Below the pieces are notes generated by a model that was not told the origin of the DNA, did no database searches, and worked only from the letters and a program-made list of their open reading frames with translations. Below, one piece after another: positions 28,287 through 30,081 of a stretch of 64,000 nt of DNA (positions are counted from its first letter, which is position 1; every line of letters starts with the position of its first letter). The DNA is taken from contig NZ_JAAIVF010000006.1 of the NCBI RefSeq assembly GCF_029589495.1, positions 248,001 to 312,000 of the forward strand, written 5' to 3'. The position numbers and the translations under genes are program-made. The DNA is from Speluncibacter jeojiensis (GTDB taxonomy: Bacteria; Actinomycetota; Actinomycetes; Mycobacteriales; Mycobacteriaceae).

Positions 28287-28907
28287 TCACAGGTCGCGGT
28301 CGGTGATGATCCCGCTGTGCATCGCGCGTTCGGCCAGCCGCACCCGCTTCTGGTTCTGCGGCAGGTCCTCGACCCCGAACTTCGCGAACAGTGTCCGCAT
28401 GTGCGTCTTGATCGCATCCACGCTGAGGAACATCTCGTCGGCGATGTGCTGATTCGACGCGGGGTTCGCGAACGTCGCCCCGTGCTTGTACGGACGGCAC
28501 AGCGCGACGAGCACCGCCCGCTGGGTGTCGGTGAGCGAGCGGACCGTCGGCATCTCCGCCGCGATGCGCGTCGCCTCGTCGGGGGTACCGCCGAAGGCCT
28601 GGTAGGTCAGCAACGTTGTGCCGATCCGGATCGCGTCACCGTGGTGCAGCCGACGCCGGCCGCCGATGCGCTCACCGTTGACGTAGGTGCCGTTGCGGGA
28701 GAGCCCGTCGTCGACGACCGTCCAGTGGGTGTTCATCCATTCGATCACCGCGTGCAGCCGGGAGACCTCCTCGTCCCAGGTGAGCGCGACATCGGAGCGG
28801 TCCGAGCGTCCGACGGTCAGCCGCGGGTGATCGGTCGACAGGTCCAGGCGCTGCTGATGGCCCGCGCCGTCGGCGAAACACAGTCGAGACTCGCTGCCGC
28901 CGTCCAC
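28287..28907 (-). CDS. FHA-domain protein with C-terminal LuxR-like helix-turn-helix
   Basis: This encodes a protein of about 206 residues. The N-terminal FHA fold shows LTVGRSDRSDVAL, SRLHAVIEW and GLSRNGTYVNGERI, the phosphothreonine-binding signature. The C-terminal part ASNQHIADEMFLSVDAIKTHMRTLFAKFG is a LuxR-like DNA-binding helix set. The pairing suggests a transcription factor controlled by a Ser/Thr kinase. GTG 28907 is the chosen start; a TTG at 28943 would add 12 residues. No kinase lies in the window. Confidence 0.78.
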   Translation of the reverse strand: MDGGSESRLCFADGAGHQQRLDLSTDHPRLTVGRSDRSDVALTWDEEVSRLHAVIEWMNTHWTVVDDGLSRNGTYVNGERIGGRRRLHHGDAIRIGTTLLTYQAFGGTPDEATRIAAEMPTVRSLTDTQRAVLVALCRPYKHGATFANPASNQHIADEMFLSVDAIKTHMRTLFAKFGVEDLPQNQKRVRLAERAMHSGIITDRDL

Positions 28908-29106
28908 CGTTCCATCGTGCGCCGAGCGTGCCGCCGGGGGCAATGCCCGCCCCGGTCCGCCGCAGTCGCACCCGAGCCGGTCGCCACCGGCCCCAGGGTG
29001 GGGACGGGACCACCCGGGAGGTGCGGATCGACCCCCTCGTGCCCCTTATCGAGATCGCGGAAAAGGACGAAACTGGAGGGTGCGAGCGAGACCACGAGGA
29101 GGAATC

Positions 29107-29235
29107 ATGCTGGGACTGTTGTTGGGACTGGGCGGAGGCGCCATCGGCATCGGATTGGGCGCCGCCGGGCTCGGGCTGGGCTTGCTGCTCAGTGATGTGC
29201 GGATCAAGCGCGATGTCCGTCGACTCACGAACTGA
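29107..29235 (+). CDS. small Gly-rich hydrophobic protein with S74-like SDxRxK motif
   Basis: This encodes a 42-residue peptide. Residues 1-28 are a Gly/Leu-rich membrane-like segment, and the end reads LSDVRIKRDVRRLTN. SDVRIKRDV matches the Ser-Asp-x-x-x-Lys start of the peptidase S74 (intramolecular chaperone) domain. The rest of such a domain appears in the next frame, in the following gene, which overlaps it by 23 bases. ATG 29107 follows GAGGAGGAA, so translation is likely. It may be the N-terminal half of a frameshifted gene or a real coupled peptide. Confidence 0.65.
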   Translation: MLGLLLGLGGGAIGIGLGAAGLGLGLLLSDVRIKRDVRRLTN

Positions 29236-29617
29236 GCCCGCGCATCCGGGGATCGCCGCGTGCACGCGTCATCCGCTGGCCTGGGTGCGGTCGGCGGTCG
29301 GCCATCGACGTGGTGTCCGCGGCGCCGCGTCGGTGCCGACCGGCGCCGATGAGGTGCTCCAGCGGCTGACCGAACTGCCGATCAGCGTCTGGTCGTACGG
29401 GTTCGATCATCCGTCGGTGCGGCACCTGGGCCCGATGGCACAGGACTTCGCCGCCACCTTCGGGCTGGGATCGTCGGACCGCACGATGTCCACGGTCGAC
29501 GTCAACGGCGTGTGCATGGCCAGCATCCAGGCGCTGCACCGTCGGGTGACCGCACTGGAGACGGAACTGGCCGAGTACCGCCGCGCGGCGCCGACCGGAC
29601 GTAGCGTCGACCCATGA
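29213..29617 (+). CDS. S74-like (intramolecular chaperone) domain protein, lacking its N-terminal dyad
   Basis: This frame can start at ATG 29213 (134 residues) and overlaps the preceding 42-residue gene by 23 bases. The part from VLQRLTELPISVWSYGF through VRHLGPMAQDFAATFGLG and VDVNGVCMASIQALHRRVTALETEL is typical of the core and C-terminal coiled coil of S74 domains. The SDxRxK start of the domain is in the other frame. The intervening 40 residues look unconserved. The stop overlaps the SRPBCC start (ATGA). It may be a frameshifted pseudogene, a programmed frameshift or a coupled gene. Confidence 0.6.
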   Translation: MSVDSRTEPAHPGIAACTRHPLAWVRSAVGHRRGVRGAASVPTGADEVLQRLTELPISVWSYGFDHPSVRHLGPMAQDFAATFGLGSSDRTMSTVDVNGVCMASIQALHRRVTALETELAEYRRAAPTGRSVDP

Positions 29618-30081
29618 CCGATACGAAGGTGACCGCCGTCGACCTGGGTCCACGCCGGGTCGCCCGCCGGGTGGTCGTGGACGCTCCGGCCGCCGAGCTG
29701 TTCGCTCTCGTGGCGGACCCGCGGCGGCACGGCGAACTGGACGGGTCCGGGACCGTGAAGTCGACGGTGTCCGGTCCCGACCGGCTCGGCCCCGGCGACA
29801 GGTTCACGGTGGCGATGCGCATGTACGGCGCGCCCTACCGGATCACCAGCACGGTCACCGAGTTCACCGAGGGCCGGGTGATCGAATGGCGCCACCCGTT
29901 CGGGCACCGCTGGCGGTGGGAGTTCGACGAGCAGTCCCCGGGCCGCACCCAGGTCACCGAGGTCTGGGACTACACGACAGCGAAGGTGCCGAAGGTCTTC
30001 GAACTGGCGGGGTTCCCGAAGAAGAATGCGCACGGCATCACCGACACCCTGCTCGGGCTCGCCCGACGGTACGGCGGCTGA
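29614..30081 (+). CDS. SRPBCC family protein
   Basis: This encodes a 155-residue polyketide-cyclase/dehydrase-type START fold protein. RVVVDAPAAELFALVADPRRHGELDGS is the standard N-terminal strand-helix unit, with VIEWRHPFGHRWRWEFDE in the sheet and a long C-terminal helix. ATG 29614 overlaps the preceding stop. The ligand is unknown. Confidence 0.85.
   Translation: MTDTKVTAVDLGPRRVARRVVVDAPAAELFALVADPRRHGELDGSGTVKSTVSGPDRLGPGDRFTVAMRMYGAPYRITSTVTEFTEGRVIEWRHPFGHRWRWEFDEQSPGRTQVTEVWDYTTAKVPKVFELAGFPKKNAHGITDTLLGLARRYGG

Follow-up and report, generated by a model that had tools for sequence, protein, structure and literature searches.

A peptidase S74/ICA domain divided between two neighbouring genes in actinobacteria, with probable assembly in trans

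The region described here lies within a 64,000-nucleotide stretch of the Speluncibacter jeojiensis genome, hereafter called the window, and includes two overlapping open reading frames, ORF1 and ORF2 (Table 1). ORF1 encodes a short peptide with the translation MLGLLLGLGGGAIGIGLGAAGLGLGLLLSDVRIKRDVRRLTN, which is followed by the stop codon. ORF2 consists, in order, of a basic N-terminal extension, the remainder of an S74 domain (helix 1, WxY, VRHLGPMAQDF, and FGLG), and a C-terminal helix predicted to form a coiled coil; its sequence contains ISVWSYGF and RHLGPMAQDFAATFGLG, after which the C-terminal helix follows.

Table 1. Features of the ORF1–ORF2 locus (positions are those of the window).
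Feature	Position	Strand	Description
FHA–LuxR gene	28287–28943	−	Fusion of an FHA domain and a LuxR-type helix-turn-helix; transcription runs away from the ORF1–ORF2 pair
ORF1	29107–29235	+	42-aa Gly-rich hydrophobic peptide, ATG start; C-terminal tail SDVRIKRDVRRLTN with the S74 Ser-Lys dyad
Dyad-bearing tail SDVRIKRDVRRLTN	29191–29232	+	Predicted catalytic Ser is ORF1 residue 29, Lys is residue 34
ORF2	29213–29617	+	134 aa; ATG at 29213, TGA ending at 29617
ORF1/ORF2 overlap	29213–29235	+	23 bases; ORF2 ATG inside the R-D-V codons of the tail; ORF2 in the +1 frame
SRPBCC (Polyketide_cyc2) gene	29614–30081	+	Downstream; ATGA overlap with ORF2

Since ORF1 is preceded by a strong AGGAGG and a clear ribosome site is absent ahead of the ATG of ORF2, the arrangement suggests that ORF2 is translationally coupled to ORF1. 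The same position of the ORF2 start codon (−23 ATG) is also found in the R. opacus group and in Prescottella. An operon with the SRPBCC gene had been proposed from the sequence; the overlap of this gene with ORF2 makes their co-transcription probable, but the SRPBCC gene is not a conserved partner. Across the loci only the ORF1–ORF2 pair is kept and the wider gene neighbourhood varies; with the pair alone conserved among relatives, a conserved operon with an SRPBCC or alpha/beta hydrolase gene is ruled out. In its own frame ORF1 has a pN/pS of 0.49, compared with 0.98 and 1.89 for the alternative frames, and purifying selection acts on ORF1 in that frame.

The S74/ICA domain is self-cutting and three-part-assembling, and it occurs in phage spikes and in the human myelin regulator MYRF. 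ORF1 of the window alone has no match to the corresponding Pfam profile (PF13884), and ORF2 alone scores 18 bits (18–19 bits without the tail), below the gathering score of 22 bits, so that neither of them exceeds this cut-off as a single polypeptide. The first profile position covered by the ORF2 match is 14; therefore, the N-terminal piece of the S74 domain is missing from ORF2. The SDxxxK motif, with the S+5=K spacing, is found in the ORF1 tail, on a separate chain from the rest of the domain. When the tail and ORF2 of the window are joined in silico, the match extends over profile positions 1–52 with 33.9 bits. Four other pairs joined in the same way score 34.0, 39.4, 47.4, and 36.1 bits from position 1, compared with 20.9, 25.2, 29.1, and 26.1 bits for ORF2 alone. 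Shuffled tails give 20.4 and 20.5 bits for the window and 29.2 and 29.8 bits for the pair L108, that is, a gain of at most about 2.5 bits versus 10–18 bits for real tails. By profile, the ORF1 tail and ORF2 together are one complete S74 domain. The sequence-only reading, which had described an S74 domain split over two overlapping frames, with the dyad in the first and the remainder and C-terminal helix in the second, is borne out in all of these respects. The MYRF-specific ICA profile (PF13887) gave a chance-level match only, in one homologue (E 0.084), and a sequence search of the PDB returned only a match to a hook protein, which we rejected as spurious.

Relatives were found with a profile built from the four closest ORF2s, and each locus was examined for the dyad segment S[DN]xxxK, either ahead of the domain and in its reading frame or at the end of a distinct ORF lying upstream. 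The profile search detected ORF2 relatives in 35 of 401 family genomes, and 80 loci were kept in the GTDB genome collection. Relatives occur sporadically, in about 9% of family genomes and 1.5% of the class and phylum samples, and some copies are plasmid-borne. The two-gene layout is kept in about 50 non-redundant actinobacterial loci, from Rhodococcus, Prescottella, Antrihabitans, Mycolicibacterium, Nocardia, Streptomyces, Geodermatophilus, Thermomonospora, Microtetraspora, Nocardiopsis, Pseudonocardiales, and one Euzebyaceae MAG. Among the kept actinobacterial ORF2 relatives with an intact upstream region, all but L086 have their own upstream ORF ending in S[DN]xxxK; L059, cut by a contig end, is the other exception among the kept relatives. 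The non-actinobacterial relatives, from Myxococcota, Planctomycetota, Bacteroidota, Chloroflexota, Pseudomonadota, Acidobacteriota, and others, carry the dyad segment in the same frame, all except the unclear case L090. The deeper actinobacterial relatives L146 and L147 are ordinary fused proteins. No split pairs were found in viral contigs (IMG/VR) or INPHARED phages, and the IMG/VR relatives are fused virion proteins; on these grounds a phage origin of the pair was rejected.

The tails have the form S[D/N]xxxK and a length of 13–16 residues from Ser to the end of ORF1, and nearly every intact split locus fits this pattern. Ser and Lys are present in 46 of 46 distinct tails, the search pattern itself having required both, and Asp in 45 of 46. 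Position +8 is mostly V or I, and position +11 is hydrophobic, with V, L, or I in all 46. Among the 11,422 ORFs of at least 30 aa in the loci, 55 end in such a tail, and nearly all of these are ORF1s. The sole split locus in which the tail apparently lacks Ser is L086 (Streptomyces sp. Ru73), where CRPAMKTDVVAVEW lies upstream of an ORF2-type gene; the upstream frames look broken there, and a sequencing error, decay, or a Cys variant are the options.

In a tree built on 85 columns, 45 split rows and 25 fused rows fall on opposite sides of one branch (support 95/87, present in 94% of bootstraps). One split event is consistent with this topology as its simplest reading, the root of the tree not being fixed. 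An ORF2-like gene without ORF1 (L144) groups with the fused forms and was left out of the split count. Within the split clade, a single actinobacterial fusion was seen, a TPR protein of a Streptomyces anulatus plasmid (L140:2267-4399, NZ_CP109519.1), in which TPR, SDRAVKCDVDPVVW, a linker, and an ORF2-type part follow one another in one chain. Its position in the tree makes this protein a natural re-fusion. It resembles the TPR family of the FxSxx-COOH system.

ORF1s are diverse and are not always paired. The ORF1 profile has a match in the window's own genome at E 2.4e-17. A second ORF1 of that genome (C1:1176840, MLGLVLGLGSSVIGIGLGLGSSALGLGLGLLLSDATIKRDVRRLGD) has a strong ribosome site and an intact tail, SDATIKRDVRRLGD, and no adjoining ORF2, and the sole ORF2 of the genome is the one in the window. 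R. maanshanensis, where orphans with an intact tail are likewise found, has two ORF1–ORF2 pairs and two further lone ORF1s, one of which is followed by a trace of ORF2. A trace of the ORF2 N-terminus comes after the orphan ORF1 of L165, a locus that may represent the decay of a former pair. Every one of the 18 family genomes in which ORF1 matched strongly (18/18) also contains ORF2. Two tandem ORF1 paralogues precede one ORF2 in L056, and in Mycolicibacterium xanthum (L054:4628-4825) one cationic ORF1 precursor carries three tandem SDxAIKHDV tails, spaced by cationic RRLSRRLAYR units; if cut before each Ser, this precursor would yield repeated cationic peptides. The orphan ORF1s and these tandem tails fit an action in trans. 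The bodies of ORF1 differ by lineage, being hydrophobic and Gly-zipper-like in Rhodococcus and cationic in L054 and L056, while the ORF1s of L088, L103, and L108 have apparent Sec signal peptides that leave 16–19 residues ahead of Ser, as judged by eye. No fibre or spike precedes the S74 segment in the same chain; the bodies are short hydrophobic, cationic, or signal-peptide-bearing. A second type of ORF1, with a carboxypeptidase-regulatory-like or Ig-like body and the ending CSDRxLKxDVVPVDWSR, is seen in Streptomyces (L098, L106, L187, L189, and L191), in some genomes alongside a chaplin-like pair. The identification of ORF1 as a chaplin was rejected, the ChpA-C similarity being weak, sub-threshold, and limited to some Streptomyces ORF1s. 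The tail search in Streptomyces gave extra pairs and no convincing orphans.

The fused relative L085 was modelled with a pLDDT of 91.7. The best match of the model is the crystal structure of the MyRF ICA domain (7dc3, probability 1.00), followed by the phage chaperones 3gud and 3gw6. The tail segment of the model comprises residues 13–24, helix 1 starts at residue 26, and the C-terminal helix comprises residues 75–112; therefore, the site of the natural split corresponds to the loop that leads into helix 1. The AlphaFold model of a tethered ORF1–ORF2 chain, computed as a monomer, was poor (pTM 0.37), with the donut strands unformed, and was set aside. In MYRF, the "cable" with the cleavage site runs from one subunit through the "donut" of the adjacent one, Ser587 and Lys592 are both needed for cleavage, and the trimer is also required; the S+5=K spacing is common to MYRF (S587/K592) and endoNF (S911/K916) (PMC8326128). 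A split between the cable and helix 1 is structurally plausible because the MyRF active site is already assembled between chains.

On this basis, we interpret the locus as a two-component peptidase S74/ICA domain assembled in trans, to which we assign a probability of about 0.75. ORF1 would be a small membrane-inserted peptide, secreted in other lineages, whose last 13–16 residues form the SDxxxK segment of the S74 fold, and ORF2 would supply helix 1, the beta "donut", and the trimerising coiled coil. The ORF2 trimer would bind the tails of ORF1 chains and rebuild the active site in trans, so that the S74 domain apparently forms only when ORF1 and ORF2 meet. That the two proteins associate is likely. 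The next step, in which assembly would lead to cleavage just before Ser29 of ORF1 and free its body from the tail, is less certain; such autocleavage in trans is plausible and is predicted, with somewhat better than even odds, from the conservation of the dyad. The tail would then be a tag for processing and trimerisation, with several ORF1 peptides possibly sharing one ORF2. Tentatively, and with rather less confidence, the tag may be transferable, and the ORF2 trimer may be a maturation factor acting in trans on several small peptides of each cell, membrane-active or secreted; its clients would be the orphan tagged peptides, the tandem-tag precursors, and the precursors with 16–19 residues between the signal-peptide site and the S74 site. 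Our best guess for the cellular role is the maturation or release of such small peptides. It should be noted that the apparent Sec signal peptide of ORF1 in the Streptomyces-type pairs is without a counterpart in ORF2, which counts against the model as regards the compartment in which the two would meet.

Three options had been offered for the pair from its sequence: programmed frameshifting, a recently broken gene, and a coupled two-protein autoprocessing system, of which the evidence favours the last, with complementation and cleavage in trans being what we infer. A programmed +1 frameshift of the ribosome within 29213–29235, giving one fused protein, would agree with the 23-base overlap and +1 frame of the window. 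A conserved frame relation, expected of such a mechanism, was not found: ORF2 is in frame 0 with an intervening stop in, for example, L018–L020, L025, L026, and L103, in frame +1 in the window and the R. opacus group, and in frame +2 in R. oryzae, Antrihabitans, and Streptomyces (ATGA, GTGA, or TTGA overlaps), with overlaps and gaps of varied length. Frameshifting therefore cannot be the conserved mechanism, and, as orphan ORF1s exist and ORF2 has its own start codon, we consider it highly improbable in the window as well. A recent indel or an assembly error could also leave two overlapping frames of one domain in a single genome. The homologue comparison suggested by the sequence-only reading, in which unbroken frames in close relatives would have pointed to such an accident, gave the opposite picture: actinobacterial relatives keep the two-gene layout with a varying frame relation in dozens of species of several orders, and the only unbroken frame in the split lineage is that of the TPR protein inside the split clade. 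Together with the single origin on the tree and the purifying selection on ORF1, this leaves a broken gene with a negligible probability. That the split is real and conserved is close to certain; it is old, and neither gene breakage nor programmed frameshifting accounts for it.

A chance likeness of the tail between unrelated neighbours would be conceivable for a segment of only 14 residues, but the near-restriction of such endings to ORF1s and the small gain from shuffled tails make it very improbable. A split domain without catalysis deserves more weight: ORF2 would be a trimeric chaperone or holdase that binds the ORF1 tail and maintains the solubility, oligomeric state, or location of a peptide that is hydrophobic or destined for export. 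The hydrophobic or exported nature of the ORF1s is in line with this, as is the existence of separate-gene chaperones, similar to the S74 intramolecular chaperone, for Alteromonas phage fibres (PMC10579305). Binding alone, however, should allow replacement of Ser by Ala or Thr and of Lys by Arg, and both residues are invariant in the 46 distinct tails, which were retrieved with a pattern that required them, while their neighbours vary freely. We therefore regard binding without cleavage as unlikely and prefer the catalytic two-component domain.

S74/ICA domains are textbook intramolecular devices. Split inteins and SpyTag/SpyCatcher depend on a short tag peptide that makes up the missing part of a domain provided in trans; the ORF1–ORF2 pair has no sequence relation to them, and S74 chemistry would cleave rather than splice or ligate. 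With the S74 chaperone of endosialidase (PF13884; endoNF S911-K916, PDB 3GW6 and 3GUD) the pair shares the SDxxxK dyad, the GxxAQD core, the C-terminal coiled-coil helix, and, once the tail and ORF2 are joined, a profile match from position 1. Unlike the endosialidase chaperone, it consists of two proteins, is not intramolecular, has no upstream beta-helical spike or fibre, and bears the dyad on a 42-aa hydrophobic peptide. The ICA domain of MYRF (PDB 7DC3) is the best fold match of the fused relative, belongs to a membrane-linked protein, has the same dyad spacing (S587-K592), and shares its active site between subunits, which we count as a likeness to the split pair. MYRF differs from the pair in being a single chain that liberates a transcription factor and whose transmembrane segment follows the ICA domain; in the pair, Ser comes after the hydrophobic segment, and a different gene product bears the dyad. 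The nearest precedent is the separate-gene phage fibre chaperones that resemble S74 domains: gp9 of Alteromonas phage A5 and gp27 of V22 are trimers of this kind that act on another protein (PMC10579305). There, the whole chaperone is separate and a client dyad is not described, whereas here the division runs through the domain itself, leaving the dyad with the client. Within the open-licence papers searched, no description of a split S74 domain was found.

That an S74 domain cut inside the segment of its active site has been retained in many actinobacterial orders shows that such a domain can function, or can at least survive, in the form of two proteins. With a tag of 14 residues and a partner of 134, S74 cleavage in trans between subunits can be put to a direct test; the pair could also yield a conditional self-cleaving tag for biotechnology. 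If the tag reading is true, the pair would be a natural tag/catcher maturation system with autoproteolysis only on assembly. Unannotated or "hypothetical" micro-ORFs adjoining genes for "tail fiber domain-containing protein" thereby gain a likely function. As regards the nucleophile, two S74-type domains of IMG/VR viral contigs (L121 and L127) have Cys replacing the catalytic Ser (MCDRAIKRDF and MCDKNVKRDF), a possible nucleophile swap.
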